DNA of 49,122 nucleotides, taken from a bacterium (GTDB lineage: Bacteria > ARS69). Location: contig JALGZR010000062.1 of NCBI GenBank assembly GCA_025774805.1, positions 1 through 49,122 on the forward strand, written 5' to 3'. The notes beneath the pieces are model-generated. The model saw only the letters and a program-made list of their open reading frames with translations, was not told the DNA's origin and did not search any database. A program made the translations under genes and the position numbers. Below are positions 1,066-48,359 of the stretch, piece by piece. Positions within the stretch are counted from its first letter, which is position 1, and every line of letters starts with the position of its first letter.

Positions 1066-1303
1066 CCCAGGGAGAGTACGCAAGGACGAGCGCGGGCGGC
1101 GTGTCGAGCGATCTGGAGGCATCCGCGGCGGTCATGGGCCCTCTTCCGTCTCCGGACGACCGCCGATGGGTGCCCCGGGGAAGGGTTCGGCAAACGGGGC
1201 CTCCATGTGATAGAATCCGGTGCGAGTCGACACGACACGCCCCGATCGCGCTGCAGCCTCCAGCTCCGGTCCCCACGCCGGTGCTGGCGATGGGAGACTC
1301 CGC

Positions 1304-3934: not shown

Positions 3935-4098
3935 ACGGCGTGGAACTCACCCGCAGTTCATGAACCGTTCCCGGGCCGATCCCGGAGGGACTCCCGTCGA
4001 ACCGTCGACTCACCTGTACGCCGACTGAGGAGGGGACGGTGACGGCGAGGGACGGGGGGAGACCGGCCCGGTGAAAACACAATCTCCGAAGCACAACG

Positions 4099-4129
4099 AA
4101 AAGGGACGGCCCCGGGAGGGGCCGCCCCT
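4099..4129 (-). terminator. Rho-independent terminator of the gene at 4154-5068
   Basis: On the minus strand an 11-bp GC-rich stem (GGGGCGGCCCC paired with GGGGCCGTCCC, one wobble) with a TCCC-type loop is followed at once by TTTT. It lies 25 bases after the stop of the secreted-protein gene. This is the clearest intrinsic terminator in the window. Confidence 0.8.
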
Positions 4130-4153
4130 GTATGCATTCAGGAGTGGACTCGC

Positions 4154-5308: not shown

Positions 5309-6178
5309 TCAAGGGTCCGTCTGGCGCCACGCCGCGCGCCGTCTGACGGAGTGGGCGCCCTTGCGGACGATCGTTCTTCCTTCTTCGGGGAGGGGAGGGG
5401 GGACCGGCTCGCCGATGATCTTCCGAACGGCGTCGATGCGGCCGGGGCAGGCCTCGAAGCAGGTCCCGCAGCGGATGCACTTCTCCTGATCGATGACGTG
5501 AATCCGGTTCTTGCCGCCCGCGATGCCGTCCACCGGGCATCTCTTGCCGCAGATCATGCAGGCCTGGCACTTCTCCGGATCGATGTGATAGGAGACCACT
5601 TCCCGGAAGAGCCCGTCGATCTCTTCCCTCGTATAGAGATCGTCGTAGTCCTCCTCGCGATCGAGGCGGAGCGCCAGCTTGTCCTTCTTGATCAGCTTGA
5701 TGTAGGGAACGAGCTTCGCGACCTCCTCGAGACCGGCGGTCAGATCCCCGTTGCCCTCTTCTGCGCCGTTGCCGAGGGGGCCCAGCTCCCGCAGCTTCTC
5801 GGTGAAGTCGTTCATCACCTCGGCGAACCGGTTGCCCTCCGCGGCGGAGATCCACTCGATCCGGAGCCTTTCGGGGTTCACCCCCCTGTGCTCGAGCAGC
5901 CTCTTGCAGAGATGCATCAGGTTCAGAGCATCGTAGTTCCCTTCCGTCACGTAGTGGCACTCCCCGAGCCAGCAGCCGCCGACGATCACCCCGTCGGCGC
6001 CCTTCCGGAACGCGCGGAGCACGAAGGCCATGTCCACCCGGCCGGTGCACATCAGGCGGATGATCCGGATCTCCGGTGCATAGCTTTGTCTGGTAACTCC
6101 AGACAGGTCCGCAGCGGAGTACGCTCACCAGTTGCAGAGGAAAGCGACGATCCTCGGCGAGTGGCCGAGTCCGGTCAT
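5309..6178 (-). CDS. bamF: BamF/MvhD-like selenoprotein with C-terminal ferredoxin domain
   Basis: This 289-residue electron-transfer subunit would pass electrons between HdrA-like BamE and an external donor. The conventional reading starts only at MCTGRVDMAF (6052), but on the minus strand an ATG at 6178 with a strong GGAGGTGAGG site overlaps the bamE stop (ATGA). From it the reading runs MTGLGHSPRIVAFLCNW, an in-frame TGA at 6127-6125 (residue 18), then AYSAADLSGVTRQSYAPEIR straight into the conserved MCTGRVD. MvhD has Cys at the TGA position (CNWC), so TGA is read as selenocysteine. The MvhD part (GADGVIVGGCWLGECHY) is followed by two [4Fe-4S] motifs (CQACMICGKRCP, CIRCGTCFEACP) near residues 215-255. 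BamF of Geobacter is, from memory, also selenocysteine-containing. It is the last gene of the operon. Confidence 0.9.
6087..6105 (-). promoter_or_regulatory. SECIS-like hairpin in bamF
   Basis: Downstream of the TGA the minus-strand RNA folds as a perfect 7-bp stem, TGTCTGG/CCAGACA, closing a 5-base loop AGTTA. The loop starts 27 bases after the TGA and has G within its first two bases. Both properties match the known rules for bacterial SECIS elements, which lie inside the coding region just 3' of the UGA and bind SelB. The stem is also coding sequence (LSGVTRQ). Confidence 0.7.
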
Positions 6179-9100
6179 GTCCTCACCTCCTCTTTCGCCC
6201 GATTCTCTTCACCGGCGGAGCTCCACGACTCGGAGAGCGCCGCGTCGATCTGGTTGAAGACCTCCTCGTTCGTGAAGTGCCTCAGGACGATGGCGTCGGT
6301 CGGGCACTTGCTGCAGCAGAGGCCGTCCCCCTTGCAGAGGGCGGGATTCACTTCCGCCTTCTGGCCCCACTTCGTCTGGCGCGCGTGGATCGCGCCGTAC
6401 GTGCAGGCCTCGATGCAGGCCCCGCAGCCGATGCAGCGGGATTCCTCGACCTCGCAGACCGACCCGGATGCCGTGACCGTGTCGTGGGACAGGAGCGTGA
6501 CCGCCCGCCCGGCCGCGCCGAGGGCCTGGCTGATGGTCTCCGAGAGGTGCTTCGGATAGTGGTTCGTCCCGCACATGAAGACGCCGTCCGCGCCGAAGTC
6601 GACCGGCCGGAGCTTCACGTGGGCCTCCTGGAAGAACCCGTCCGGATTCACGGGCACCTTGAAGAGACGGGCGACCTCCGGGGTGCCGGCCGAGGGAACC
6701 ACCGCGGCCGAAAGGGCCACGAGGTCGGCGTCGATGGCCAGCCGCTGCCCGAGCACGGCGTCGGGAACGGTGACCTTGAGGACCGGCTTGCCCTCCTCGT
6801 CCTGGGCCGTCTCGACCTCGGGCCTGCCGTCCGGCTCCCACTGGACGAACCGGACACCCCGGTCCGCCGCCTCGAGGTAGTAGTCCTCCTTGAAGCCGTA
6901 CGTCCGCATGTCCCGGTAGAGAATGTAGAGGTCCAGGTCGGGGCTCCGCCTCTTGAGGGTGAGCGCGTTCTTGACGGCCTGACTGCAGCAGACCCGGGCG
7001 CAGTAGTCCCGGCCCTCCTGCCGACATCCCACGCACTGGATCATCACGACGCTTCGTGCCTTTTCGATCCGCTCGTCGCCCCCGTCGATCCGCTCCTCCA
7101 GCTCGAGCTGCGTCCACACCCTGTCGTCCTCGCCGTAGAGGTACTCGACAGGCCGGTGCTCGTCCGCGCCCGTGGCGAGGACGACGGCGCCGTGCTCGAT
7201 GACCTTGGTCTGTCCCTCCGACTCCACCGTGGTGACGAAGTTGCCCACGTACCCGGACGCGTCCGTGATGGTCGCCGCATGGGAGACGTGGATGAGCGGA
7301 TGTCGGTAGACCTGCTGGATCAAATCCCTCACGTAGGCCTGAACGTCCAGCCCTTCCAGCGTGGCTCGGATCCGCCGCGCCATGCCGCCCAGCTCCTTCT
7401 CCTTCTCCACGAGGTGGACGTCGAAGCCCTGATCCGCCAGGCCCAGCGCGCAGTTCATTCCGGCCACGCCCCCGCCGACCACCAGGGCCGTCTTGTTCAC
7501 GGGAAGCTCGAACTCCTGCAGCGGCTCCAGGCCGATCGTCCGGGCCACCGACATGCGGACGATGTCCTTGGCCTTCTGGGTGGCCTCCTCCTTCTGCTTG
7601 GAGTGCACCCAGGAGCAGTGCTCCCGGATGTTGGCCATATCGAAGAAGTACTGGTTGATGCCCCCTTCCCGGAGCGTGTCGCGGAAGAGCGGCTCGTGCG
7701 TGCGCGGTGTGCAGGCGGCGACCACCACGCGGTTGAGTCCCTTCTCCCGGATCGTGTTCGCGATCTGCTCCGCCGCGTCCGTGGAGCAGACGAAAAGACC
7801 CTCCTCCGCGTGGGCCACGTGCTCCAGGCCCTTCGAGTACTCGACCACGGAGGGAACGTCCACCACGCGGCCGATGTTCGCGCCGCAGTGACAGGCGAAG
7901 ACGCCGACCTTGAGCTCCTCTTCGGAGACGTCCCGCTCCTCGGGATACACCCTCTCCTTGTCCAACTGGCCTCGGCGGGACTTCAGCAGGGCCCCGGCGA
8001 GGGCGCTGGCTCCGCTGGCGCTCATCACCGACTCGGGAATGTCCATGGGGCCCTGGAACGCGCCGCTGACGAACACCCCGGGCCGGGTGGTCTCCATGGG
8101 ATTCACCGGGTTGGTCTTGCAGAACCCGTGCGCGTTCAGCTCGATGCCGAACTGCTCGGCGACCCGCTTCACGTTCGCGGGCGGGGCCAACCCGATGCCC
8201 AGGACCACCAGGTCGAACTCCTCCTCCTTCACGCCCTCCCCGTTCGTCGCGTAGCGGATCGTCACGTTCTTCGTTCCCGGAATCTCCCGCCCGATCTCCA
8301 CGTAGCTCCGGATGAACCGGACCCCGGGCATGTTCTCCGCCCGCCGGTAGAACCGTTCGAAGTCCTTGCCGAAGGAGCGGATGTCGTTGTGGAAGACGAC
8401 GGCCTCGGTTTCGGCGTCGTGGTCCTTCGCCAGGATCACCTGTTTCTGGACATACGAGCAGCAGACCGAGGAGCAGTAGCTGTGGCCGCCCTCGAGCACC
8501 TGTCGGGAGCCGACGCAGTGGATCCACGCGATCTTGTGGGGGTGTTTGCGGTCGGAGGGGCGCAGGATGTCGCCCTCGTGCGGTCCGGTCGCACACAGGA
8601 GCCGCTCGAAGTCGAGACTGGTCACGACGTTCTGCAGCGTCCCGTAGCCGTAATCGCCCCGCACCCGGGGATCGAACGCCGCGTAGCCGGGCGAAAGGAC
8701 GATCGCCCCTACCTTGACGACCTGCTTCCGCGCCTTCTGGCGGAGATCGATGGCCTTGTTCTTACAGACGCTCTCGCAGATCGTGCACTTCTCGTCCTCG
8801 AGGAAGCGGCAGCGGTCATCGATGTAGGGAACGAGCGGAACGGCCTGCGAGAAGTAGATGTGGATCGCCTTGTTGTCGGAGAGTTCCTGATTGAACGCGT
8901 CGGGGACGTGGATCGGGCAGTATTCGGAACAGGTGGTGCACCCGGTGCAGACGTCCTCGTTCACGCGCCGGGGCTTGCGAACCAGCGTGACCTCGAAGTC
9001 TCCGGCCTCGCCTTCGACCTTCTCGACCTCCGTGTAGGTGAGGATCTCGATGTTCGGATGCCGGTCGCACTCGATGAACTTCGGCGACTCGATGCACATC

Positions 9101-9279
9101 GAGCAGTCGTTGGTCGGGAACGTCTTGTCGAGCTGGGCCATCTTCCCGCCGATCGTGGGATCCCGCTCGACCAGGTAGACCTTGTAGCCCGACGTCGCCA
9201 GATCGAGGGCGGCCTGAATGCCGCTGATCCCGCCGCCGACGACCATGACGTCTCCGAGCCCGTTCTCGGACGCGCTCAT
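6175..9279 (-). CDS. bamE: BamE: double HdrA-like flavin/iron-sulfur electron-bifurcation-type subunit
   Basis: The product has 1034 residues, about 1.5 times a methanogen HdrA, because the flavoprotein module is present twice. The first FAD-binding site is VVGGGISGIQAALDLA (residues ~12-27). It is followed by ferredoxin-type clusters CTGCTTCSEYCP and CTICESVCKNKA. Next come the HdrA motifs CVGSRQ...YCSSVCCSYVQKQ and CHCGANIGR (Cys here, where some methanogen HdrA has Sec). A second FAD site (VVGGGVAGMNCALGLA) and a second CVGCRQ...YCARVCCSQAVKNA set follow. Two more [4Fe-4S] motifs (CIGCGACIEACTYGA, CKGDGLCCSKCP) end the protein. The start ATG at 9279 overlaps the bamD stop (ATGA) and its own stop overlaps bamF, indicating tight translational coupling. 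In Geobacter, BamE is the flavin subunit proposed to bifurcate electrons; the same role is inferred here. Confidence 0.9.
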   Translation of the reverse strand: MSASENGLGDVMVVGGGISGIQAALDLATSGYKVYLVERDPTIGGKMAQLDKTFPTNDCSMCIESPKFIECDRHPNIEILTYTEVEKVEGEAGDFEVTLVRKPRRVNEDVCTGCTTCSEYCPIHVPDAFNQELSDNKAIHIYFSQAVPLVPYIDDRCRFLEDEKCTICESVCKNKAIDLRQKARKQVVKVGAIVLSPGYAAFDPRVRGDYGYGTLQNVVTSLDFERLLCATGPHEGDILRPSDRKHPHKIAWIHCVGSRQVLEGGHSYCSSVCCSYVQKQVILAKDHDAETEAVVFHNDIRSFGKDFERFYRRAENMPGVRFIRSYVEIGREIPGTKNVTIRYATNGEGVKEEEFDLVVLGIGLAPPANVKRVAEQFGIELNAHGFCKTNPVNPMETTRPGVFVSGAFQGPMDIPESVMSASGASALAGALLKSRRGQLDKERVYPEERDVSEEELKVGVFACHCGANIGRVVDVPSVVEYSKGLEHVAHAEEGLFVCSTDAAEQIANTIREKGLNRVVVAACTPRTHEPLFRDTLREGGINQYFFDMANIREHCSWVHSKQKEEATQKAKDIVRMSVARTIGLEPLQEFELPVNKTALVVGGGVAGMNCALGLADQGFDVHLVEKEKELGGMARRIRATLEGLDVQAYVRDLIQQVYRHPLIHVSHAATITDASGYVGNFVTTVESEGQTKVIEHGAVVLATGADEHRPVEYLYGEDDRVWTQLELEERIDGGDERIEKARSVVMIQCVGCRQEGRDYCARVCCSQAVKNALTLKRRSPDLDLYILYRDMRTYGFKEDYYLEAADRGVRFVQWEPDGRPEVETAQDEEGKPVLKVTVPDAVLGQRLAIDADLVALSAAVVPSAGTPEVARLFKVPVNPDGFFQEAHVKLRPVDFGADGVFMCGTNHYPKHLSETISQALGAAGRAVTLLSHDTVTASGSVCEVEESRCIGCGACIEACTYGAIHARQTKWGQKAEVNPALCKGDGLCCSKCPTDAIVLRHFTNEEVFNQIDAALSESWSSAGEENRAKEEVRT

Positions 9280-10478
9280 GGCCTCTCTCCGCCTTCCCCG
9301 AACGACTCGAGGACGACCTCGGTGAGGTCCCGGATCTCGAGAACGGCGCCCTCGGGCGGACCCCCGTTCCCCGCGAGACCGAGCCGGCTCTCCTCGAAGT
9401 TGCTGATGCAGTAGGGGCAGGAGGTGACCAAGACCTCCGCGCCGACCTCCTGCGCCTGGGCCAGTCGGAGGTCGCCGAATCTCTCCTCCCTGTCCGTGTG
9501 CATCCAGATCCGGCCGCCCCCGCCGCCGCAGCAGAGGCTGTTCTGCCGCGTGTCGGGCAGCTCCACCAGCTCCAGGCCGGACAGCTTTCCCAGCACGTCC
9601 CGGGGCTCGTCGAAGACCCCGTTGTGGCGTCCCAGGTAGCACGGGTCGTGATACGCCACGCGTTTGTCGAATCGCCCGGTGAGCTCGAGCCGTCCCGCCT
9701 CGACGAGCTCCTGCAGATACTGCGCGATGTGCACGACCTCGAGGTTCACCATGAACTCGGAGTACTCGTTCTTGAACGTGTGGTAGCAGTGGGGAGATCC
9801 GACGAGGATCCGCTTCACTCCGTGGTCGATGAAGGCCTTGATGTTCTCCCGGGCCAGGGTCTTGAACTCCTCCTCGTTGCCCGCCTTGCGGATGCTCTCG
9901 CCGCAGCAGCTCTCCCGCGTGCCCAGGATTCCGAAGTCCACCCCGGCCCGCTCGAGGAGCTTGGCGGTGGCGGCCGCCACCTTCATGTTGCGCGGGTCGT
10001 AGCTGTAGTAGCACCCGACGAAGTACAGGATCTCCATGCCCTCGGTGAACGGCTTGACGGACAGGCCGTTCGCCCAGGCGGTCCGCTGGTCCCGCGCCTC
10101 CCCCAGCGGATTGCCTTCACTGACGATGCTGGTGCGGACGGCGCGCAGCGAGCTCGCCGCGCCGGAGAACACGTCGTAGCTCGCCGCGAGCTTGCGGATG
10201 GCGACCGCGACCTCGATCTGATCGACGCCCCGGGGACACTGCGACGGACATTCCCCGCACGTCGTGCACCGCCAGATGTCATCGACTTCGATCTCCGGCA
10301 GACCCAGAGCGGCCTGCCAGACGATTCGGCGCATGCTGAAGTTCGTCACGCGGTTCCAGGGGCAGACGACGTCGCACTTCCCGCACTGATAGCAGTACTT
10401 GAAGACCCCGCCGCCGGCGTCCTGGATCTCCCGGGCGATGTCGGCAAAAGGGGTGACGGTCTCCACGCTTCTCTCCAT
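9276..10478 (-). CDS. bamD: BamD: HdrC/HdrB-like iron-sulfur subunit
   Basis: The product is a 400-residue cytoplasmic electron-transfer protein. N-terminal HdrC-like part: two [4Fe-4S] motifs, CYQCGKCDVVCPW and CTTCGECPSQCPRG (residues ~28-90). The C-terminal HdrB/LldE-like part has two CCG domains, ESCCGESIRKAG and NSLCCGGGGGRIWM, plus DPCYLGRH and SCPYC, as needed for noncubane clusters. The start ATG at 10478 was chosen from the conserved N-terminus. The Shine-Dalgarno sequence is poor (ACGGAG directly abutting the ATG), and this is the only junction of the operon with a gap (23 bases) rather than an overlap. Its end overlaps bamE by 4 bases. The alternative name would be a generic heterodisulfide-reductase-like subunit; gene order favours BamD. 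Confidence 0.87.
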   Translation of the reverse strand: MERSVETVTPFADIAREIQDAGGGVFKYCYQCGKCDVVCPWNRVTNFSMRRIVWQAALGLPEIEVDDIWRCTTCGECPSQCPRGVDQIEVAVAIRKLAASYDVFSGAASSLRAVRTSIVSEGNPLGEARDQRTAWANGLSVKPFTEGMEILYFVGCYYSYDPRNMKVAAATAKLLERAGVDFGILGTRESCCGESIRKAGNEEEFKTLARENIKAFIDHGVKRILVGSPHCYHTFKNEYSEFMVNLEVVHIAQYLQELVEAGRLELTGRFDKRVAYHDPCYLGRHNGVFDEPRDVLGKLSGLELVELPDTRQNSLCCGGGGGRIWMHTDREERFGDLRLAQAQEVGAEVLVTSCPYCISNFEESRLGLAGNGGPPEGAVLEIRDLTEVVLESFGEGGERP

Positions 10479-23550: not shown

Positions 23551-26085
23551 ATGCGTATTCCGACTCTTGTCATTCTCGCGGGTCTCGTGACCGTCTGCCT
23601 CGGGCCGACGGTGGGCCCCGCGCACGCCGAGCCGTCCGGGCCGGCCCGCGCACTCCTCGATTGGTTCGACCACATGGATGGATTCTATGACGCGAACCCC
23701 GAACTCAAGAGGACCCCGGGCAGCGGCTGGAAGCCGTTCAACCGGGTCAGGTGGTTTCAGAAGCAACGCATGGTGAATGGTGAGCTGCCGCCCGTCGGCG
23801 CCCGCTGGCGCGCCTGGGAGGCTCGTCGGGCGCTGGAGGACCGCCGCGGCCGTTCCTCTCGCTCGATCTGGTTCTCCCTCGGCCCCGTGAACTTCGCGGG
23901 TCGCATGCTCGCCATCGACTTCGACCCGGTGGACCCGAGCATCCTCTACGCCGGCGCTGCCAGCGGGGGGGTCTGGCGATCCACGGACAGCGGGATCACG
24001 TGGATCCCGATCTCGGACGAGCTGCCCTCGCTCGCGATCGGAGGACTCGCCGTCAGCAAGACGAACCGAGACGTCATCGTGATCGGTACGGGCGAGGGCA
24101 CCATGAACATCGATCGCGTGACCGGGATCGGCATCCTCCGATCTACCGACCGCGGCGCTTCCTGGATTCCGACGAGCCTGTCGTACCCGGCCACCGGCCT
24201 ATTCGGCCACGGTTTCCACTTCCTGGAATCCGGTCCCGGCGGGACGTTCCTCGCGGGAGCGGTCGACGGTCTCTACCGATCCTCGGACGACGGCGCGACC
24301 TGGACGCAGGTTCGAGGGGTCACGCGCGAGGACTACCGCTGCGGCTACTACGACGCCAAATGGGACCCCGAGGATCCCTCGCGCGTGTACACGGTGAAGG
24401 GGAACGACACGTCCGGCAACAACGTGAAGGTGTCGACCGACGATGGGCTCACCTGGGCCAAGGCGGGCACGGGGCAGCCGCCGTCCTTCATGATCGGCAA
24501 GTCGAAGCTCGGAGTGAGCGGGAGCACCGTCTATGCGTTCTTCGGAGACCTGGGTGCCGGAACGACTCTGGGACTCTGGAAGTCCACCGACGACGGCGCG
24601 ACATGGGCGAACACGTCTGCCACCGGGCTTCCTGATTGGCAGAGTTGGTACAACCTCATCTGCGCCGCCGACCCGAACGACCCCGAAATCGTGATCACGG
24701 GAGCGGTGAATCTCACGCGATCCACCGATGGCGGGTCGACGTTCGTCCTGGTCGGATCGAACGTCCACGTGGATCACCATGCCGTCGCCTGGGAGCCGGG
24801 GAATCCCGAGGTCGTCTGGGTGGGCACCGACGGCGGAATCTGGGAATCGACGGACGATGGCGCCACGTGGACCGACCGGAACGTCGCATTGATCACCTAC
24901 CAGTTCTACGACATCTGTGTGGGGAACGGCCCCACTTACTACGTCATGGGAGGCACGCAAGACAACGGCACTGACAAGTGGTCCGGAACGACGACGTGGG
25001 CGGAGGGACTGGGAGGCGATGGAATGGTCTGCGACATCCCCTCCGTATCCGACAACGTGGTCTACGCCGAGGCCATCGACTGGCACTTCAAGAGCACCGA
25101 GTATGGAATCGAGGGCTCTTTCGTTCAGATCGACAACGGCATTCCGGGAGGAAACGCACAGTGGGTCGTCCCGACCGATGCAGCCGAGAGCGATGCCGAC
25201 TACGTGCTGACGAACCACTCGACGGCCGGGATCTTCCGTACCACGAACGGTGGGGATTTCTGGGTGAACGTTGCGGCCCACACGGCGACGTGGATCTCCA
25301 TCAGCGAGATGGACGCGGACGTCGCCTGGACGATCGACGGCAATACCGTCCATCGGACGACCGATCGAGGCGACACGTGGACGCAAGCCGCGGCCCTCGG
25401 ATTCGAGGCGGGGGCCGCTACAAAGATCCTCGCCCATCCCACCGATCTGAGCACGGCGGTCGTGACGTTTTCCGGCTACGAGGACCTCTGCCACGTGGCC
25501 TTCACGACGGACATGGGCGCGAGCTGGACGGACGCCACGGGAAACCTCCCGCCCCTTCCGGTCAGCGCGATCGCGATCGATCCGAGTAGACCGGGGGACT
25601 GGTACATCGGCACCGATCTCGGCGTGTGGTCGAGCGCGGACAGCGGGGCGACGTGGTCGCCGTTCGAGGAGGGGCTGCCCAACGTGGTCATCGCCGACCT
25701 CGAGATCGCGGATGCTCCTCGCAAGCTCGTGGCGGGTACGCACGGCCGTGGCGCCTGGGAGATTGCATTGCCGCCGCCCGGGGGCGTCGGCGTCACCGTG
25801 GCTGCGGATCGAGGGGCTCGGAACCTCATGCTCGATCCGCCTTACCCGAATCCGACGGCTGACCGTACGCTGCTTCGTTACGCGGCGCGGAGCGACGCTC
25901 CAGGGCACCTCCGCATCTACGACGTGAACGGTCGGGTCGTCGGTGATCTCGCGCAATTCGACCGCGGCGATGGGATCATACGCACGACGCCTTGGCTCAT
26001 CGATGAGCTCCCGAGCGGACTCTACTTCGCTGTGCTCGAGGCCGGCGGCGAACGGATCTCCAGAAAGATCACGGTTCTTCGCTGA
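23551..26085 (+). CDS. Secreted BNR/sialidase-like repeat protein with FlgD-like C-terminus
   Basis: The product has 844 residues, with a signal peptide (IPTLVILAGLVTVCLGPTVG, cleavage near AHA) and GGAG before the ATG. The body is a set of Asp-box/BNR repeats of sialidase or VPS10-type propellers (GGVWRSTDSGITW, GIGILRSTDRGASW, GLYRSSDDGATW, GLWKSTDDGATW, GIWESTDDGATW, VHRTTDRGDTW). No sialidase FRIP motif or Arg triad is seen, so catalysis is doubtful and carbohydrate binding more likely. The last ~85 residues are the FlgD-like module (LDPPYPNPTADRTLLRYA, LPSGLYFAVLEAGGE). GC-rich codon use matches its neighbours. Confidence 0.87.
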   Translation: MRIPTLVILAGLVTVCLGPTVGPAHAEPSGPARALLDWFDHMDGFYDANPELKRTPGSGWKPFNRVRWFQKQRMVNGELPPVGARWRAWEARRALEDRRGRSSRSIWFSLGPVNFAGRMLAIDFDPVDPSILYAGAASGGVWRSTDSGITWIPISDELPSLAIGGLAVSKTNRDVIVIGTGEGTMNIDRVTGIGILRSTDRGASWIPTSLSYPATGLFGHGFHFLESGPGGTFLAGAVDGLYRSSDDGATWTQVRGVTREDYRCGYYDAKWDPEDPSRVYTVKGNDTSGNNVKVSTDDGLTWAKAGTGQPPSFMIGKSKLGVSGSTVYAFFGDLGAGTTLGLWKSTDDGATWANTSATGLPDWQSWYNLICAADPNDPEIVITGAVNLTRSTDGGSTFVLVGSNVHVDHHAVAWEPGNPEVVWVGTDGGIWESTDDGATWTDRNVALITYQFYDICVGNGPTYYVMGGTQDNGTDKWSGTTTWAEGLGGDGMVCDIPSVSDNVVYAEAIDWHFKSTEYGIEGSFVQIDNGIPGGNAQWVVPTDAAESDADYVLTNHSTAGIFRTTNGGDFWVNVAAHTATWISISEMDADVAWTIDGNTVHRTTDRGDTWTQAAALGFEAGAATKILAHPTDLSTAVVTFSGYEDLCHVAFTTDMGASWTDATGNLPPLPVSAIAIDPSRPGDWYIGTDLGVWSSADSGATWSPFEEGLPNVVIADLEIADAPRKLVAGTHGRGAWEIALPPPGGVGVTVAADRGARNLMLDPPYPNPTADRTLLRYAARSDAPGHLRIYDVNGRVVGDLAQFDRGDGIIRTTPWLIDELPSGLYFAVLEAGGERISRKITVLR

Positions 26086-26139: not shown

Positions 26140-26292
26140 CCATGGCGGCTAGCCCGGACTATTCATGAACGACCTGCTGCGATCGCGGATCCGCACCACC
26201 GGACGGACGTCCTCGCGTCTCGCACCCTGCGACGTATCGTTCAGATACGCCTCGGGTTCGCCTTCATGAATAGTCCGGGCTAGCCGCCATGG
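26140..26292. repeat. Foldback/MITE-like element, copy 1
   Basis: A perfect 30-bp terminal inverted repeat (26140-26169 and 26263-26292; inner core AGCCCGGACTATTCATGAA) flanks 93 bases. The interior contains CGTATC-GTTCA-GATACG, a second small hairpin. A related copy with the same terminal core and the shared segment CCCTGCGACGTATCG...AGATACGCCTCGG lies at 40930-41110. It carries no gene. CTAG occurs at both outer edges of the core and could be a target duplication. The minus-strand stop codon of the FG-GAP gene (TAG, 26282-26280) lies inside the right arm. This looks like a non-autonomous transposable element; the parent transposase is not in the window. Confidence 0.75.
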
Positions 26293-27119
26293 ACGATGGT
26301 CTGGTTGACGAGGATTCGATATCCTCCGGTGCCCTCCCGGGTTCCGAGCAGCAAGTCCAGATCGCCGTCACCGTCCACATCCGCCAAGGAAGGGATCCCC
26401 TTTCCGCCGATTGGTGAGCCCGTCCCGGTGAATCCCCCTCGACCATCGTTCAGCCAAAGGGCGACGTCCTGTTCCTTGCCGACGCCGGCCGTCAACATGT
26501 CCAGGTCGCCGTCCCCATCCAAGTCTCCGAGAGCTCCACGCGCGCCGGCTCCGAAGTAGTCGTCGGCAGGGGAGAAGATGTACTTGCCATTGTTGGCCCA
26601 GAGCCTGCCGGGCTTCTGGAAGACCGTCACGAACGCGTCGAGATCACTATCGCCGTCGACATCTCCCAAGGTGACGTTTGTACTCCAGTCCTGCGTATCA
26701 CCGCCCAGCTTCTGTCCGCTGTCGATCAGGTTGCCGGTGCCGTCATTGAGGAACACGAGGTCAGGACCGCCATTGTCGACCAAGAAGAGATCGAGATCGT
26801 GGCTCCCGTCGAGATCGCCGAGTGCGGCACCGTGACCTCCACGATTACCCAGACGCTGCCCGCTGTCTCGGAATCGGCCCCGCCCGTCGTTGATCCAGAC
26901 GTGGCTGGAATCGAGGAAGCTGAGCACGACGAGATCGATGTCGCCGTCACCATCCAGATCGCCGGGTGCGATCTGAAATGTCCGGCGGTCCCCCAGGTGC
27001 TGTCCGGATTCCTCGAACCGGACCCCGGTCGTCTGCGGTGAAACGAGTGATGGGGTCATCAGCAGCAGAAAGCCCGTAAACATGGACTGTGGAGTCCATC
27101 CGCGGCAGTTACCGTGCAT
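26280..27119 (-). CDS. Secreted FG-GAP/VCBS repeat protein
   Basis: The product has 279 residues. The ATG at 27119 has GGAGGAATCAAG upstream. The signal segment is SMFTGFLLLMTPSLVSPQ. It contains six calcium-binding FG-GAP loops (GDLDGDGDIDLVV, GDLDGSHDLDLFL, GDVDGDSDLDAFV, GDLDGDGDLDML, ADVDGDGDLDLLL) separated by strands ending in WxNDGRGxF. This is about the size of one small propeller. The gene's last codons run into the right arm of the foldback repeat, which supplies the stop, so the original C-terminus may have been longer. No FlgD-like module is present. Ligand unknown. Confidence 0.83.
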   Translation of the reverse strand: MHGNCRGWTPQSMFTGFLLLMTPSLVSPQTTGVRFEESGQHLGDRRTFQIAPGDLDGDGDIDLVVLSFLDSSHVWINDGRGRFRDSGQRLGNRGGHGAALGDLDGSHDLDLFLVDNGGPDLVFLNDGTGNLIDSGQKLGGDTQDWSTNVTLGDVDGDSDLDAFVTVFQKPGRLWANNGKYIFSPADDYFGAGARGALGDLDGDGDLDMLTAGVGKEQDVALWLNDGRGGFTGTGSPIGGKGIPSLADVDGDGDLDLLLGTREGTGGYRILVNQTIVHGG

Positions 27120-34862: not shown

Positions 34863-36890
34863 ATGTGGCCGATTCGGTTCCGGCCGCCGCTTGTCGCGGC
34901 GGCGTTGCTCACGACAGTCTTCGCCACTCCCCCGATCTCCGCTCAGACCGGCGTGGACGGACTCCGCCTCGTCGGGACGAACCTGGATCAGTTCGCGCAC
35001 GTGATGTCCATCCGGGTCGTGGGCGACTACGCCTACGCCTCGATCGGGTTTCCGCCCGGCCTGGAGACCTACGACGTCTCCACACCCTCGAGCCCGGTTC
35101 GGGTGGCATTCATCGGCCGAGCGGCCTGGCGAACCTCCGTTTCGGGGGACACGCTGTTCAGCTACTGTCACTTCGACGGGGTCGAGTGGTACGACATCTC
35201 CTCGGGGATCCCCGTGGCCCTCGGCTCCTACGATCCTCCGAGCGCGACCACCGCCTACGAGGGGGGCGCCCGCGTGGGCGACTCCCTCTATGTAGCGGCC
35301 CTCCAGGCCGGGATCGAGATTGTCGACCTCGGAATGGCGCCGTCGCACACCGGGACGATTCCTCTGAGCGACGACGCCGCCTGGGACGTGGAGGCCTCCG
35401 GCGGGCACCTCTTCGTCGCGAACGGTCGTCACGGCCTGGCGGTCGTCAGCCTCTCGGGGACGCCTGCCGAGGTGGCCACGCTTCCGCTGCCCGGCCTGGC
35501 GAACGACATCGAGATCTCGGGAACCACCGCGCTCCTGGCCCTGGGCGCGGACGGCGTGGCTTCCGTCGACATCTCCAATCCCACGGCTCCGGCTCTCCTG
35601 GACGTTCATCCGACCTGGGGGAACGCGTTCTCCATGGGGCGGATCGGGGATCACCTGGCCGTGGGCGCCTATCCGTTCTTGGAGGAGTACGACGTCTCCG
35701 ATCCGATGAATCTCGTCCGTTCGGGTTGGGACCAGACCCGGACCTATGCGATGGGCGCGGGGGCGGGCGTAAACAGCGCGGGCGACACCCTCTACGCCGT
35801 CGCCGACTGGGAGGGAATGGCGGTCTATGTTCCCGAGGAGGATCCGGGGCCGGACATCGCGATTTACCCCACGCGACTCGACTTCGGCGCGGTCACCGCC
35901 AGCCGGGACACCACCGCCGAAGTCCGGAACAACGGAACGGATGCGCTCGACGTCTCCCTCATCACCGCACCGGCCGGATTCTCGGTCTCGCCGGCGACGT
36001 TCACGGTCCCGCCGGGGGGGGTCCAGAACGTCGTGGTCACCGCCACGAGCACTCCCGAGGTGCGGGGAGAGATCCGCTACTTCTACAGCGCCTCCCGCGG
36101 TCCGGGGGCCCCCTCCTTCGCCAACCAGTTCGTCTATCAGAACAACACGACCTTTCCCCAGGTGGGATCGGTCGCGCCGGACTTCGATCTGCCGGGCACC
36201 GACGGGAACAACCACCGGCTCTCCGACTATCGAGGGAGGGTGGTGTACCTGGAGTTCGGGGCGAACTGGTGACCCATCTGCCCGCTGCAGGCTGCAGCGA
36301 CGGATGCTTCGATCTACTCGCGCTATGATACGACCGAGGCGGTCGTCTTCGAGATCACCCAGTTCATCGACCAGTCCGAGGAGTTCCGGGACACGTTCGG
36401 CATGCGGTTCGTGGGCCTCGAGGACGCCGGGAGCGCGGTCTACTCGACGTATCGGACGCCCGATCCCTACGCGCCCTATCCCCAGGACTACATCATCGAT
36501 CCCGGCGGAGTCGTTCGGCACTGGTCGACGGAGTACGAGCCTCTGGAGGTCATCGCCGTGATCGACGAGCTTCTCGGAGCCACCCCGATCACCGAGAGCC
36601 CGACCGTCGCTTCCGGCCCCTGGCTCTCGACGCCCTCGCCCAATCCGTTCCTCGAGGGCACGACGTTTCGCTTCGGAGTCCCTCTCCGGGGCCGGGCCCG
36701 CGTCACCGTGCACGACATCGGGGGGCGCCGTCTCCGCGTGCTGGCGGACGGAACCTGGTCGGCCGGGGTGCACCGGGTGACCTGGGACGGACGCGACGCC
36801 TCGGGCCGCCGCGCGGCCCCGGGCGTGTACTACGTTCGTTTGGAGACCGACCGGGAGACGCGAACGACGCGGGCGACCCGGCTGCGGTGA
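34863..36890 (+). CDS. Secreted LVIVD-redoxin selenoprotein (Sec-x-x-Cys) with FlgD-like C-terminus
   Basis: The gene reads in one frame from the ATG at 34863 (GGGAGGACGACC upstream) to the TGA at 36890 if the internal TGA at 36270-36272 is decoded as selenocysteine (residue 470 of 675). A signal peptide ([20 protein letters not shown]) leads into LVIVD-type propeller repeats ([39 protein letters not shown]). An Ig-like choice-of-anchor region follows ([20 protein letters not shown]). Then comes a TlpA/AhpC-TSA redoxin domain: [23 protein letters not shown]-Sec-PIC-PLQ. Sec occupies the first Cys of the usual WCxxC motif. The redoxin continues past the TGA ([17 protein letters not shown]), which excludes a real stop. 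A FlgD-like module ([30 protein letters not shown]) ends it. It is a probable extracytoplasmic thiol-redox protein. Confidence 0.88.
36283..36299 (+). promoter_or_regulatory. SECIS-like hairpin in the redoxin selenoprotein gene
   Basis: A perfect 7-bp stem, CGCTGCA/TGCAGCG, with a GGC loop begins 11 bases after the in-frame TGA; the loop lies 18-20 bases from it. The G-rich apical loop and this spacing match bacterial SECIS rules. The stem overlaps the codons for PLQAAAT. Confidence 0.72.
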
Positions 36891-41847: not shown

Positions 41848-44800
41848 TCACCTTCGGGACAGGACCCCCACCGTGGATCGATTGGGACGCGTGTTGTACG
41901 TGGCGAGGTAGTCCCGCAGGGCTTCGGTGTCGGGGTAGCTCTCGGACGCCGAGTAGGGATAGCCCGACATGCCGTGGAAGGGGAGGGGAGTGATCGTGTC
42001 GGAGTGCTTCGTGTTGAGATCGCCGTCCTTGACCCAGCCGTTCGCGTAGAAGACGTAGTCGCGGACCCAACCCGCCGGCAGGTCGGGGAGCGCGCGGGCC
42101 GGAAAGCGCATCGCGAGCTCGTCCCCCGGTCCGAAGATGACGTAGCGGTCGTCGGGATCGTCGAGGAGGGCAGCGACGTCCCCGTAGCGCGTGAGCCGGC
42201 CCGCCGGCGGACTCCAGGAGCCGGTGGGGCTCACGTCGGCGTAATCGAACCGCTCGTATCCCAGCGAGTCGCGCTCCAGGCGCGAGAAGCCGCGGTAGCG
42301 CAGATTGGCCTCGCTCACGGCGAGCTCGGTGATCCGACAACGGCGCGCCCCGTTCTCGGTCGCGACGAAGACCTGATCGAAATAAACGCAGAGATTCGTC
42401 CTCAATCGGACGTGGAAGTCGTTCGTCGGAAACCGGCCGGTCAGGTCGACGGGGACGATCGCTCCCTTGCTCGTGGGCAGACCCACGGAGGGAAGGGCGG
42501 TCCGCCAGCGACCCTCGGCGTCGCGCACCTCGAGGGAGAGCGGAGCCAGGGCGTAGCGGGGGTCCTGCGCGATGGCCATCACCGTGCTGGACTCGGGCCA
42601 GTAGATCCACCCGTCCAGGAAGAGAAGCACGGATTCGGCCTCCGCGAGATCGCCGAGGTCGACGATCAGGTCGTGGGACCGGGCGAGGCCGTCGTAGGGC
42701 GTCATGGGGAACGTCGGGAACCGCCCGTCGCGATCCCGCACCAGATCCAGCACGTCGTTCCCGCGCTCGTCGACCGCGGAGACGGGGGCGCGCCGCCGGG
42801 GCACCGCGTAGAGCTTGTCCTCGGGGAACGGGGGAGCGGTGAACATCTCGTTCGGGACGATCAGGAGCTCGCCGGGGTGATCCACGACGCGCAGCCGGAC
42901 CTGGTCGACGTAGGCGGTCTCTCGGAGCTCCTCGGTGAGGCGCAGATCGAAGAAGCCCTCGCGAGGCACGAGCTGATCGGCGGCAATCATGGTCAGCTCG
43001 GTGCAGTCCGGCCGGTGGTAGACCCCCGGCGCCATGGGCACGCCGAGGGGACCGATTCCCAGAATCTCGTTGACGAGCCGATGCCCCTCCCCGTCGTACG
43101 CGTACAGAAACGCGCACGAGGCCGAGACCTTGACCTGCTCCTCCACCGTGAGGGAGGTGTCGGCGGCGGCGCCGAGCACGTTCTGCGCGACCCCGTTCGG
43201 CCACGTCACGCGAATGACGTCGACGTGGTCCAGCTCGCCCAGCCCGAAGTGGAGCTCCCCGCGATCGTAGATCCGCCTCTGGTAGTGTCCCCCCGAGGCG
43301 ATCTCGACCTCGGCGCCGAAGCCGGCCCGATTCACTCGCTTCCCGGCGAGTCGAATCCGGAGCCAGTGCCGTCCGCGACTCGCATCGTTGCGAAGGAGCC
43401 GCACGCCGTGATCCCGGGTGAGCAGCACGAGGTCCTCGTCGCCGTCCGCGTCGAGGTCCCCGACGGCGAGATCGGCGATCTCGCCGAGCTCTCCGCCGAG
43501 ACCGGCGCCTTCCGTCACGTCCCGGAAACGGTTCGCGCCGGCCGCCGCCAGCAGGACGAGGGACCGGCCCTCCCCGGCCACGAGCAGGAGATCGCACCAA
43601 CCGTCGTTGTTGAGGTCGCCGACGCGAAGACGCTCGACCGCCGAATCGTCCGCGCCCGCGGGCAGCGGAATCGGCGTTCCCGCGAAGGAAGCGCCTCCCT
43701 CGTTTCGATAGACGTGGAGGCCCGCCGAGAGCCCCACCACCAGATCGTCGTCCCCGTCGTGGTCCGTGTCGACGACGGCCACGGACACGGCGCCGGAAGG
43801 GAGCGGGGGAGAGAACGTCCCGCCGCGGACGTACGCGCCGAAGCGCGCGTTGAGAAACAGCCGCGAATCGGCATCGGCGTTCACGACGAAGAGATCGGTG
43901 TCGTGATCGTCGTCGAAATCGGCGTACGCGGCGTCGAGCGTCTGCGCCAGCGCCACGAGGAGACCCGCCTCGTCGGATTCGTCCGCAAACGTGCCGTTTC
44001 CCAGGTTCCGCAACAGCGTGTTCGACTGCCCCTCGAAGTCGGAGGGAAAGCGCGGGGGGCTCGAGGCCGTCGCGAGGGGGGAGGCGAGGTCCGCTCCGTT
44101 CCCGATGAAGAGGTCGAGGTCGTTGTCGTGGTCGTAGTCCAGGAAGAGCGCCCGGCGTCCGAAGTGGGGCTCGTTCGCCTGGGCCGCTTCGGAGGCGTCC
44201 GCGAACGTTCCGTCCCCCGAGTTGCGGTAGAGCCGGTTCGGCCCGGCGTTGACGACGTAGAGGTCGGCGTGTCCGTCGTTGTCGTAGTCTCCGAAGACGA
44301 CGTCCATGGCGAGGCCGGCGTCCCCGACCCCCGCGTCCGCGGTCGCGTCCGCGAACGTGCCGTCCCCCCGATTTCGCCAGAGTCGGTTCACGGACGCGAC
44401 GGGGTCGACGGCGCAGTGAGCCACGTAGAGGTCGAGATCCCCGTCGCCGTCGACGTCGGAGAGCTCGACCGCTCCGCCGACCGCCGGGGCGTGGCGACGA
44501 CGCAGCGCCTCGACGGCCGCCCTCCCGTCGTCCCCGACCACCGGAGGCTCCTGCGGCGCCCGCTCCCGATCCGCCGGGCGGCCGTTCCCGGCCGGCCCCG
44601 AGGAGGCCGTCACGTCGACGAAGCGGCCGACGTCCTCCGGACGCGCGACCAGCTCCCCGGTCAATCGAGTGGCGGCCCGGACGGAGGAGTACTCGCTGCG
44701 CTCCAAGGCCTCGACGGTCTTCTCCGACTCGTCGACCGTGTCCTTGACGCGGGCGAAGATCTCCTTGTGCCGCTCCGCGTTCTCGACCTCGCCTCGGAGC

Positions 44801-45390
44801 ATGTACAGGCTGATGAGCTGGTAGTGGGTGCTCGGATCCTCCGGCGCGAGCTCCGCCTTGCGCCGGAAGCTGGCGATGGCCCGCCCGTAGTCCTGCACGG
44901 ACTTGTAACAGACTCCGAGATTGTAGTGGGCGCCCTGGCAGAGGGGATCGCGGGCGGTCACCCGCTCCAGGGAGGCGATCGCCTTCTCGAACTCGCCCCG
45001 GCGCTTGTGGATGATCCCGCGGAGGTAGTGGACCGCAAGGAGGTCGGGATCGCGGGCCTCGGCCTCGGCGAGCGACGCGAGGGCGGACTCGTAGGCCTTG
45101 CCGCGCATTTCGGCGAGCGCGAGGTTGAATCGGTCGGCCGCCTCGTCGGGAGCGAGCTCGATGCAGCGGCGGTATTCCGCCGCCGCCTCCCGGAAGTCGC
45201 CGTTCTCGTAGTGGGCGCGCGCCCGGAGCCGCCGCGTGTCCAGCTCGGCCGACGCCGGCTCCTCGCTCCACGGCGCCGGCTCACCGGATGCCGGAGCCGG
45301 CTCCGCGGCGCCGGCACCGGCGAAGCCCGCACCGACCATCACCGTCAGAGCGATCGCGGCGCGGGCGGTCCTTCGATTCGTCTCTCGCAT
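41848..45390 (-). CDS. CRTAC1-like secreted TPR/FG-GAP/ASPIC protein (1180 residues)
   Basis: The start at 45390 (MRETNRRTARAAIALTVMVG) gives a signal peptide. Residues ~50-220 are TPRs (ARAHYENGDFREAAAEYRRC, GIIHKRRGEFEKAIASLERV, NLGVCYKSVQDYGRAIASFR). FG-GAP/VCBS calcium-loop repeats follow to about residue 690 (SDVDGDGDLDLYVAH, GDYDNDGHADLYVVN, LDYDHDNDLDLFIGN, VDTDHDGDDDLVV). The ASPIC/UnbV domain comes next (RHWLRIRLAGKRVNRAGFGA, VDVIRVTWPNGVAQ), then ~400 residues without recognised motifs (DQVRLRVVDHPGELLIVPNE). It is the second gene of a two-gene unit with the CRTAC1-like gene at 45462-48359 (71-base gap). It probably acts at the cell surface; ligand unknown. The 41628-41847 gap holds no supported feature beyond small hairpins. 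Confidence 0.88.
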   Translation of the reverse strand: MRETNRRTARAAIALTVMVGAGFAGAGAAEPAPASGEPAPWSEEPASAELDTRRLRARAHYENGDFREAAAEYRRCIELAPDEAADRFNLALAEMRGKAYESALASLAEAEARDPDLLAVHYLRGIIHKRRGEFEKAIASLERVTARDPLCQGAHYNLGVCYKSVQDYGRAIASFRRKAELAPEDPSTHYQLISLYMLRGEVENAERHKEIFARVKDTVDESEKTVEALERSEYSSVRAATRLTGELVARPEDVGRFVDVTASSGPAGNGRPADRERAPQEPPVVGDDGRAAVEALRRRHAPAVGGAVELSDVDGDGDLDLYVAHCAVDPVASVNRLWRNRGDGTFADATADAGVGDAGLAMDVVFGDYDNDGHADLYVVNAGPNRLYRNSGDGTFADASEAAQANEPHFGRRALFLDYDHDNDLDLFIGNGADLASPLATASSPPRFPSDFEGQSNTLLRNLGNGTFADESDEAGLLVALAQTLDAAYADFDDDHDTDLFVVNADADSRLFLNARFGAYVRGGTFSPPLPSGAVSVAVVDTDHDGDDDLVVGLSAGLHVYRNEGGASFAGTPIPLPAGADDSAVERLRVGDLNNDGWCDLLLVAGEGRSLVLLAAAGANRFRDVTEGAGLGGELGEIADLAVGDLDADGDEDLVLLTRDHGVRLLRNDASRGRHWLRIRLAGKRVNRAGFGAEVEIASGGHYQRRIYDRGELHFGLGELDHVDVIRVTWPNGVAQNVLGAAADTSLTVEEQVKVSASCAFLYAYDGEGHRLVNEILGIGPLGVPMAPGVYHRPDCTELTMIAADQLVPREGFFDLRLTEELRETAYVDQVRLRVVDHPGELLIVPNEMFTAPPFPEDKLYAVPRRRAPVSAVDERGNDVLDLVRDRDGRFPTFPMTPYDGLARSHDLIVDLGDLAEAESVLLFLDGWIYWPESSTVMAIAQDPRYALAPLSLEVRDAEGRWRTALPSVGLPTSKGAIVPVDLTGRFPTNDFHVRLRTNLCVYFDQVFVATENGARRCRITELAVSEANLRYRGFSRLERDSLGYERFDYADVSPTGSWSPPAGRLTRYGDVAALLDDPDDRYVIFGPGDELAMRFPARALPDLPAGWVRDYVFYANGWVKDGDLNTKHSDTITPLPFHGMSGYPYSASESYPDTEALRDYLATYNTRPNRSTVGVLSRR

Positions 45391-45461
45391 CTCGTCACTC
45401 GCGGTGAGCGGGGCCTTGCCGCACTCCGAGGCTCGGGCGGGTTCCGCCCGTCCTCCTCGGC

Positions 45462-48359
45462 CTACTCCACCCAGACCCGGGCCAGGTCCGTGTCGACGGG
45501 ATCCTCGAGCCCCCGCAGCTCCTTGATGTAGGCGATCAGCTCGTCCTGCGATTCGTCCGCCAGCCGGAGGCGGAGCGCGAGCTCCGGAGAGTCGGGGTAC
45601 TCCTCGAGACCCCTCTCCCACGCCGTCCGCGCCCGCGCGAGGTTCTCCTCCAGTCCCTCCTCCCGGTTCTTGACGTAGCTGTCGCCCAGTCCCACGTAAC
45701 CCAGCGCGAAGTAGTCGCGCTGGCTCTCGGGGGGTAGGGTCTTCTGGAGCGCGATCAGCTCGGTGAAGTCCTGAATCGCCAGAGGGGCGTGGCCCAGCTT
45801 GCGCGGCCAGTGGAGGTGGTTCATCGCCCGGATGTACTTGGCCGACCAGCAGTTCGCGTCGAGGTTCAGGATGGCGTCGAGCTCCGCGAGGGATCGGTTC
45901 GACAGCTTGCCCTGGCTCACGATGCCGAGCTTCGGATAGGGCATCTTGTCCACGTAGGAGAGCGCCTTGTTGAGCCGGACCATGATCGACTCCGGGTGCT
46001 CCTCCACCATTGCCTCGAAGAAGCGAATCGAACGGTCGAAAAAGGCGTGGCCGTACCGGCGGATCAACTTCCGGTACTCGTTCGTGTACGTCAGAGAGTT
46101 CGGATCGAGTCGGATCGCCCTCTCCATCTCGTCGAGAGCGCTCTCCCGGCGGCCGCGGCGATCCAGGAGCATGGCGAAGTCAACGCGGAGCCGGGGGTTC
46201 TCCGGGTCGTCGGCGATCTCCTGCCGGAACTGCAGGAACTGTTTCTTGAAGTCCGCCACCTCTTCCCAGGCGAGCTCCGGCTTCTCCGCTTCACCGGTCT
46301 CGGCGACGACCGCCTTCGCCTCCCGCTGCGCCTCCCCCCGGCGCGCCTCGTGCTCTGCCTCCCGGAACCGCTTCCGCTCCTCGAGGAACGAAGCCGGCGT
46401 GCTCTCCGTGTAGCGGACGATCCGATCGGCCGCGACGTCGGTCCATCGCTCCACGTATCCGGTCGGCCAGCGGATCTCGAGCGTATCGACGACCGTTCGC
46501 TCTCCGAGCCCGAAGTGCAGACGATACGGACACTGGCTGTGGTCGCCGTTTCCCCCGTCGAGCTCCCGAATCTGGCGCAGGTCCCCCGCCACCGCCGCGA
46601 CCCGCGTCCCGATCGCGTCCCGGTTGCAGTTCGTCCCGGTCAGCTCCACCTGGAGCCAGTGGTTCCGGTTGCCGACGTCGTTCCGAAGGAGGACCCCGTT
46701 CTGTCCCTGGTTGGAGATGTAGACGTCGAGATCGCCGTCGTTGTCGAAGTCGGCCATCGCCAGCCCGCGGCCGTCCCCGATGTGGTCGAGCCCCAGCTTC
46801 GAGGCCACCTCGGTGAAGACCTCGCTGCCTTCGTTGCGCCAGACGCGCGAGGGCTCGTAACCGGCGAACGTCTTGTCGGCGAGCTCCGGCCACATCTGCG
46901 CGTCCCGGGGATTGAATCCGGGCATGGTCACGGCGGTGGCCAGATCGGTGAAGTACTCACCTTCCCCGGCGGAGATGTAGCCGTTCGCCACCATGATGTC
47001 TAGATCGCCGTCGTTGTCGAAGTCCCAGAATCTACCCGCCCAGCACCATCCCGCGTCGTAGACGTTCGTCTCGAACGAGACGTCGCTGAATCGGCCGTTT
47101 CCGATGTTGCGGTAGAGCTGGTTGCCCTCGCGGACGTACTCCTTGGTCCAGATGTTCGTGATGTAGAGGTCGAGCCAGCCATCGTTGTTGTAATCGCCGA
47201 AGTCGACGTTCATGCCCTTGTTCGTGTCCCAGCCGATGGCGTCGTCGGTGACGTTCGTGAACGTGCCGTCCGCGTTCGTGCGGAACACGCGGTCCTGACC
47301 GAAGTCGTTCGCGCAGACGAGATCCTGGTCGCCGTCGTTGTCGACGTCGGCCACTCCGACGTCAAGGGTCCAGCCCGTGTCGTCCAGATCCAGCTCCGCG
47401 CTGACGTCCGCGAACGTGCCGTCCCCGTTGTTCCGGTACATCACGTTGGGACCCCCGTCGCGCGCCGTCTCGAAGTCCTCGTGCATCTGATGGGCGTCGC
47501 GAAGACTCCACAGATGGACGTTCCGGAAGTAGTTGCCCACGTAGAGATCGAGGAAGCCGTCGCCGTCGAAGTCGAACCAGACCGCGGCGTTCCCGTTTCC
47601 GGGATCGCTTACCCCGGCCGCCTCGGTCACGTCCGTGAAGGTCCCGTCGCCGTTTGCGCGATAGAGGACGTTCCAGCCCCACTTCACTACGTAGAGGTCG
47701 AGCCAGCCGTCGTTGTCGTAGTCCCCCCAGACCGCGTCCATGCTCGTGCCGCGGTTCTGGTAGACCTGGATGCTTTCCGCCTCTCTCTTGAGGACGAAGA
47801 GCTGGCCCGGGTCGACGAGCTTCCAGGTCGTGCCGGAGTGCAGTACGGAGAGCGCCGCATCGCCGGAGAGCGGAAGGCCCCGGTCGGCGAACTCACGGCC
47901 CAGGGCCGGCGAGATCGTGCGCGCATCCAGATCGACTCCGTGAAACGGCTCCAGGGCGAAGAGAAAGGCCTCGTGGTTGGTCCGGGCCACCCCCGCGTCT
48001 TCGCCGACCTCGTCGAACGTCGCGTCCCCCCGGTTCCGGAAGAGACGGTTCGGGGTGCCGATCCGGGAGTTCGTGACGTAGAGATCGATGTCTCCGTCGC
48101 GATCGTAGTCGGCGGCGGCCACCGACGCCCCCACCGAGGCCATCCAGGCCATGATGCGGTTCAGCTTCTCGTCCATGACCGGCTTCTCGTGCCGGTGGAG
48201 CACGCCGGCCGCGGTCGTGATGTCCACGAACGCCGGACCGCCCGGACGGGGCTCCGTGTCGGGGTCGGCGGCATCGGCCGATCGACCGGTCGCCGGCAGC
48301 GTGAGCAGAAGAGCCGACGCCAGCAGAGCCGCCCGGCTCCACTCTCGGAATTCGCTCAT
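45462..48359 (-). CDS. CRTAC1-like secreted FG-GAP/ASPIC/TPR protein (965 residues)
   Basis: The start at 48359 has GAGAGGAGAGG upstream and a signal peptide (AALLASALLLTLPATGRSAD). The order of modules is the reverse of its partner: FG-GAP repeats first (ADYDRDGDIDLYVTN, GDYDNDGWLDLYVVK, FDFDGDGFLDLYVGN, GDYNNDGWLDLYITN, ADFDNDGDLDVYISN), then ASPIC/UnbV (NHWLQVELTGTNCNRDAIGT, VDTLEIRWPTGYVERW) near residues 550-650. A charged linker (EERKRFREAEHEARRGEAQR) follows, and C-terminal TPR-like helices (LRVDFAMLLDRRGRRESALD, AYIKELRGLEDPVD) end it. It leads the two-gene unit. The pair may form a complex at the surface; this is inference. Confidence 0.88.
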   Translation of the reverse strand: MSEFREWSRAALLASALLLTLPATGRSADAADPDTEPRPGGPAFVDITTAAGVLHRHEKPVMDEKLNRIMAWMASVGASVAAADYDRDGDIDLYVTNSRIGTPNRLFRNRGDATFDEVGEDAGVARTNHEAFLFALEPFHGVDLDARTISPALGREFADRGLPLSGDAALSVLHSGTTWKLVDPGQLFVLKREAESIQVYQNRGTSMDAVWGDYDNDGWLDLYVVKWGWNVLYRANGDGTFTDVTEAAGVSDPGNGNAAVWFDFDGDGFLDLYVGNYFRNVHLWSLRDAHQMHEDFETARDGGPNVMYRNNGDGTFADVSAELDLDDTGWTLDVGVADVDNDGDQDLVCANDFGQDRVFRTNADGTFTNVTDDAIGWDTNKGMNVDFGDYNNDGWLDLYITNIWTKEYVREGNQLYRNIGNGRFSDVSFETNVYDAGWCWAGRFWDFDNDGDLDIMVANGYISAGEGEYFTDLATAVTMPGFNPRDAQMWPELADKTFAGYEPSRVWRNEGSEVFTEVASKLGLDHIGDGRGLAMADFDNDGDLDVYISNQGQNGVLLRNDVGNRNHWLQVELTGTNCNRDAIGTRVAAVAGDLRQIRELDGGNGDHSQCPYRLHFGLGERTVVDTLEIRWPTGYVERWTDVAADRIVRYTESTPASFLEERKRFREAEHEARRGEAQREAKAVVAETGEAEKPELAWEEVADFKKQFLQFRQEIADDPENPRLRVDFAMLLDRRGRRESALDEMERAIRLDPNSLTYTNEYRKLIRRYGHAFFDRSIRFFEAMVEEHPESIMVRLNKALSYVDKMPYPKLGIVSQGKLSNRSLAELDAILNLDANCWSAKYIRAMNHLHWPRKLGHAPLAIQDFTELIALQKTLPPESQRDYFALGYVGLGDSYVKNREEGLEENLARARTAWERGLEEYPDSPELALRLRLADESQDELIAYIKELRGLEDPVDTDLARVWVE

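Follow-up and report, generated by a model that had tools for sequence, protein, structure and literature searches.

The stretch of bacterial DNA analysed here (49,122 nucleotides, hereafter the window) carries a reading frame that stops at a TGA codon and then stays open, and the question raised by this locus is whether that codon ends one protein or is decoded as selenocysteine (Sec) within a longer one. On the forward strand, which also bears all other features of this gene given below, the frame starts at an ATG at 34863, runs for 469 codons to the TGA at 36270-36272 (context FGANW-TGA-PICPLQ) and continues for 205 sense codons up to a TGA stop at 36888-36890, in agreement with the original prediction in both codon counts. 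Read with the UGA as Sec, i.e. residue 470, it forms a selenoprotein gene of 675 codons (34863-36887). The coding signal is continuous, with GC contents at the three codon positions (0.65/0.52/0.87 before the TGA, 0.66/0.55/0.87 after it) that are unchanged across the codon. A reverse frame is also open, as are about 2 % of shuffles of this GC-rich DNA. Because an open frame by itself is only weak to modest evidence for read-through in GC-rich DNA, the case rests on comparison.

A second copy of the gene, 69 % identical, was found in the same genome (contig C262); its TGA occupies the equivalent codon and is followed by the same hairpin. TGA also occupies this codon in nine full-length relatives from eight other genomes of other phyla (e.g. 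53 % identity over the aligned part for G121:C27 and 26 % for G059:C84). In all, the same TGA was seen in a dozen loci of ten genomes. Among 40 genomes searched in the G347 phylum, six provided seven full-architecture loci with one TGA each; the window's own small phylum gave no further member, the phylum of G331 no full-architecture member, and a related-locus search of genome contigs three weak matches only. A profile built on the Ig and redoxin domains and run against 384 genomes gave ten (near-)full-length matches, each with exactly one TGA; the best stop-free matches covered the redoxin part only, and no full-length relative with Cys at the site was found. Homologues had been expected to carry Cys or Sec at this position, and this held at both distances: the full-length relatives have TGA, and the more distant aligned redoxins TGA, TGC or TGT, with Thr in the PrxQ/Bcp-like ones. 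Each TGA inspected fell on the first Cys of a WCxxC motif, with conservation extending downstream to the catalytic Cys473 and to the C-terminal tail.

Selection was estimated separately on the two sides of the codon. Between the two paralogues, dN/dS was 0.30 before the TGA and 0.39 after it; against the G121 gene, the values were 0.28 and 0.37. Purifying selection thus acts on both sides, and with dN/dS of 0.37-0.39 the part downstream of the TGA must therefore be translated and constrained. The conservation of the TGA, the hairpin and the downstream protein across phyla is far beyond chance. That the TGA is a true stop, closing a 469-residue LVIVD-Ig product in front of a pseudogene remnant or a sequencing error, can practically be dismissed: TGA is indeed a common stop in this genome and composition leaves the frame open in the 2 % of shuffles mentioned above, but the same TGA recurs in a dozen loci of ten genomes, purifying selection persists behind it, Cys473 and the tail are conserved downstream, and other homologues have Cys codons at the site. 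None of the homologues found ends naturally before the motif, and a base-calling error hiding a TGC or TGT was excluded because the TGA is common to twelve separate loci; pseudogene, base-calling error and natural stop were all ruled out by conservation and dN/dS.

The genome that harbours the window encodes the Sec machinery, the check for sel genes having returned selA (535.7 bits, cut-off 267.9), selB (382.9 bits, cut-off 242.25) and tRNA-Sec (72.3 bits, cut-off 47), all above curated cut-offs; ARAGORN calls the tRNA SeC, with anticodon tca. Likewise, selA was present in all six of the TGA-bearing genomes first found (G121, G059, G347, G331, G055 and G328), versus 171 of 386 genomes overall. 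A bSECIS hairpin with the stem CGCUGCA/UGCAGCG and the loop GGC lies at 36283-36299, where a GGC-loop hairpin 11-27 nt downstream of the TGA had been predicted. It complies with the bacterial SECIS rule that we took from PMC13188914 for the scan (7 bp, loop GGC, 17 nt from the UGA to the loop, -9.6 kcal/mol), and only about 1 % of dinucleotide shuffles produced, at SECIS distance, an equally strong hairpin whose loop begins with G. The folding check gave a divided answer: the bSECIS rule was satisfied, but folding of the whole 60-nt stretch was unremarkable against shuffles (z = -0.76), a value uninformative as SECIS evidence. Instead of whole-segment folding, we used a scan by the SECIS rule, the Cys homologues serving as the control, in which the 31 TGA loci had a median of -7.5 kcal/mol versus 0 for the 22 Cys homologues (p ~1e-8, homologues not being independent of each other); -7.5 kcal/mol was reached by none of the 22.

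The stem also covaried. Among 12 sequences, ungapped from the UGA on, six stem pairs were 100 % paired and five of these had double-sided changes, while partners slid by 1-3 columns paired in at most 53 %; this covariation comes mainly from two clades plus one further change, i.e. from few independent events. The fragment L068 (G202) has no contiguous stem according to the SECIS rule. Nor does the rule yield a convincing hairpin for L060 (G121:C14), a redoxin with TGA in YW-U-GSC. Between the two paralogues, 13 of the 16 hairpin codons are identical versus 61 % overall (Fisher p=0.12), which is suggestive only of excess synonymous conservation.

The hairpin and the machinery also bear on which residue is inserted. 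The open frame alone demands nothing beyond read-through, which a near-cognate or mutant tRNA inserting Trp, Cys or Gly would equally provide; TGA, however, terminates other genes of the window, the homologues have Cys at the site and not Trp or Gly, the Sec machinery is present, and the SECIS hairpin is tied to TGA and not to Cys codons. We regard insertion of another residue as highly improbable; recoding as another amino acid was ruled out by the Cys homologues and the Sec machinery. With near certainty, the in-frame UGA encodes selenocysteine, which lies in the active site of a multidomain, probably exported thioredoxin-like protein.

The domains of this protein were delimited with Pfam and NCBIfam profiles and an AlphaFold model (mean pLDDT 82.7, 11-sequence alignment). 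A probable Sec-type signal peptide of 28 residues (34863-34946), read from the translation, corresponds to a low-confidence non-domain region of the model. It is followed by an LVIVD-repeat beta-propeller (about residues 35-324, 34965-35834), matched in three stretches by PF08309 (E=1.6e-12, 47 bits, cut-off 20.2), all-beta in the model and with propeller matches in Foldseek, and by a HYDIN/VesB-type Ig domain (residues 335-397, 35865-36053; PF22544, 26.4 bits, cut-off 25.5) that is conserved in relatives. The AhpC-TSA/Redoxin domain (residues 434-553, 36162-36521; PF00578, E=3.8e-15, 56.4 bits, cut-off 26) contains the motif U470-P-I-C473. A FlgD-like / T9SS type A-like domain (residues 612-663, 36696-36851; PF13860, 40.5 bits, cut-off 27; TIGR04183, 23.5 bits, cut-off 23) closes the chain, with a PNPF motif just upstream of it. 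Pfam matches above cut-offs bear out the predicted LVIVD-Ig-redoxin-FlgD order, and relatives have the same domains in the same order. The FlgD tail is missing from one relative (L058, from G121) and the LVIVD repeats from another (L059); therefore, neither part is indispensable.

Alignment with ResA/TlpA-type WCxxC proteins confirmed that the TGA sits at the first Cys of a thioredoxin-type motif: U470 aligns with the first Cys of WCxxC in ResA and in other thioredoxin-family PDB entries, the site falling in WCPYC and WCSIC in 3hdc and 4hqs. Sec at the first position of a UxxC motif is further supported by the TGC or TGT codons of homologues. In the model, a helix starts at or right after the motif, as in thioredoxin folds. 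Foldseek matches were mostly propellers, and no single protein matched the whole chain. Sec decoding, the redox fold and the domain architecture can, as a whole, be proposed with high confidence.

From these elements a mechanism can be proposed. The hairpin, 17 nt downstream of the UGA at 36270, would recruit SelB with its Sec-tRNA-Sec so that the codon is decoded as Sec, and the signal peptide would direct the product out of the cytoplasm. There, Sec470 would act as nucleophile on a disulfide, a peroxide or a similar substrate, and Cys473 would resolve the selenenylsulfide. Binding of a substrate, a partner or a surface is probably the task of the propeller and Ig domains, and the FlgD/T9SS-like tail probably sorts the protein to, or anchors it at, the outer surface. 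Most likely, the protein is a thiol-disulfide (or peroxide) oxidoreductase of the envelope or cell surface; a redox function outside the cytoplasm is likely, and we lean moderately towards the proposed export route and anchoring.

The UGA might in addition be a branch point, giving both a tail-less LVIVD-Ig protein, periplasmic or released, and the full-length sorted selenoprotein in a ratio set by selenium supply; this would add to the best explanation rather than compete with it. It would account for the place of the UGA, which separates the binding domains from the redox domain and tail in every full-length relative, and for an upstream ORF that, bounded by the UGA, is a complete LVIVD-Ig protein. 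Termination at a Sec UGA is nevertheless a general side effect that may lack function, and we consider such a regulated double product quite unlikely.

More weight has to be given to a Sec protein that remains periplasmic, acting as a disulfide reductase of the cytochrome-maturation-like or general type, with a FlgD-like tail that is a structural Ig domain instead of a signal for sorting. By sequence, the closest solved relatives are indeed ResA and thioredoxin-family proteins, and the tail in the window matches FlgD_ig better than the T9SS profile, TIGR04183 barely passing its cut-off. Against this, Por_Secre_tail/TIGR04183 is at or above cut-offs in relatives, with the PF18962 cut-off passed in G059 and in relatives of the G347 phylum, and other exported proteins of the window carry the same tail, e.g. 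a subtilase with PNPF...SGVY. A purely periplasmic protein therefore seems to us somewhat unlikely, and we infer surface anchoring from the tail alone. Tentatively, and at a little less than even chances, we extend the envelope or cell-surface oxidoreductase to a conserved surface-displayed selenoprotein family that would join a binding propeller to an obligate-Sec redoxin and cross the outer membrane by its T9SS-like tail, that would belong to a wider tail-bearing Sec-redoxin group in several phyla, and whose UGA could also give rise to two products, one a soluble binding form and the other a redox form at the surface.

Gene neighbourhoods were inspected around the relatives and in the window. 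In the G347 phylum, the Sec gene is immediately preceded on three contigs by the gene of a shorter Cys-redoxin whose tail is of the same type, with gaps of 6, 12 and 40 nt (gene pairs L099, L104 and L105), an arrangement that suggests a redox pair. A small CxxCxxCC protein (YkgJ-like by eye) comes after the pair in L104 and L105. The Cys-redoxin neighbour is absent from the window, where the flanking genes (thiolase, saccharopine dehydrogenase) give no functional lead. In L058 of G121 (1135-4596, forward strand), the LVIVD-Sec protein carries a NosD-like beta-helix as an N-terminal fusion, and beta-helix-like sequence also occurs upstream of the paralogue in the own genome (L020).

The contig itself is rich in exported repeat proteins. 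The window contains FG-GAP proteins at 1220-3934, 26280-27119, 41848-45621 and 45462-48359, three of them also with ASPIC/UnbV, and a Sortilin-Vps10 protein at 23551-26085. A FlpD/MvhD-like gene (PF02662; 5309-6178, reverse strand), adjoined by an HdrA-like gene (6175-10014), has an in-frame TGA at 6125-6127 in FLCNW-U-AYS, which is the known CxxU selenoprotein form; since the gene studied here was originally counted as a second selenoprotein, this one is probably the first.

In a phylogeny of 53 redoxin domains, the twelve LVIVD-type Sec proteins (including the fragment L068) and one LVIVD-less Ig-redoxin fell into a single clade (99/99). Another clade has the Cys proteins of one family among Sec proteins: the Cys forms L079, L077 and L091 of family f260 are nested among the short-redoxin Sec forms L063, L092, L075, L080, L082, L110, L114, L117 and L118. 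On the topology of the tree, this nesting is a natural Sec/Cys switch within a short redoxin. Numerous shorter proteins with a signal-peptide-like start and a redoxin whose first Cys is TGA, each with its own SECIS-like hairpin and most with a T9SS/FlgD-type tail, were noted in G347, G389, G393, G396, G397, G401, G331, G411, G417 and G420 (loci L063, L092, L075, L082, L080, L110, L114, L065, L116, L118 and L117), and together they make up a large group of probably secreted Sec-redoxins. L064 and L066 (G055 and G328) comprise two tandem multidomain genes per genome, each with a TWUPSC redoxin and an AGUUUC-loop hairpin, the stem of which has 10-11 bp in three of the four copies.

Most of the bacterial selenoproteins in the catalogues are enzymes of one or few domains. 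Gene callers that read UGA as a stop split a gene such as this one in two, whereby the redox half vanishes and the family is easily missed. If the tentative surface-displayed family is real, it and the wider tail-bearing group would together give bacteria a thiol redox system outside the cell that is based on selenium. All full-length relatives found have kept Sec, which suggests that selenium chemistry brings a real benefit in the envelope or extracellularly; the Sec and Cys forms within one subfamily make this benefit directly testable. The many tail-bearing Sec-redoxins also indicate that poorly cultured, tail-rich phyla have more selenoproteins than current lists show.

Compared with known systems, the redoxin is the most familiar part. 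A Prx-like thiol:disulfide oxidoreductase (PF00578, UxxC/UxxU) is a listed selenoprotein kind (PMC13188914, Table 1), and a Prx-like PF00578 redoxin with UxxC is a predicted one (PMC9312934). The window protein shares with Prx-like selenoproteins the AhpC-TSA domain, Sec at the first position of UxxC and a bSECIS inside the coding region, but its redoxin lies behind a signal peptide, LVIVD repeats and an Ig domain and is followed by the FlgD/T9SS-like tail. It resembles ResA/TlpA-like oxidoreductases in redox-domain sequence and predicted fold, with U aligned to the nucleophilic Cys, and differs from them in having Sec for Cys and several domains; since the NCBIfam ResA model scored 45.6 bits versus a cut-off of 170, it is not ResA itself. 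The families NF041054 (WAxxUGC_long) and NF053656 (redoxin_TUGYCR) are likewise ResA-like or thioredoxin-fold Sec redoxins, but their Sec motif differs from UPIC; NF041054 gave 13.3 bits on the window protein (cut-off 300), and for L080 the NCBIfam (seleno)redoxin score was 20.2 bits (cut-off 100).

Fusions of thioredoxin-fold selenoprotein domains have a precedent in the GOS survey (Prx with PP2C-like; Prx-like 2 with distant Secretin_N; Prx-like 3 and UGSC, both with unknown domains; PMC2398784), none of those named having LVIVD repeats, an Ig domain or a sorting tail. The LVIVD repeat has been described (PMC2447325), and LVIVD/choice-of-anchor B surface proteins (PF08309, TIGR04312) are alike in their N-terminal repeats and surface-protein context, TIGR04312 scoring 31 bits on the relatives scanned (cut-off 100). 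Our literature search, which covered papers outside subscription, found no description of LVIVD proteins as selenoproteins and nothing related to T9SS-linked selenoproteins, and among the 119 families and subfamilies of the 2026 catalogue none has, by name or domain entry, LVIVD repeats, an Ig domain together with a redoxin, or a sorting tail. The claim that this is not a described selenoprotein family stands for the architecture, which is absent from accessible reviews, and not for the redoxin domain, a long-known predicted kind. What is apparently new, then, is an exported multidomain architecture, with Sec that looks obligate across several phyla, built around a redoxin domain of an already known kind.
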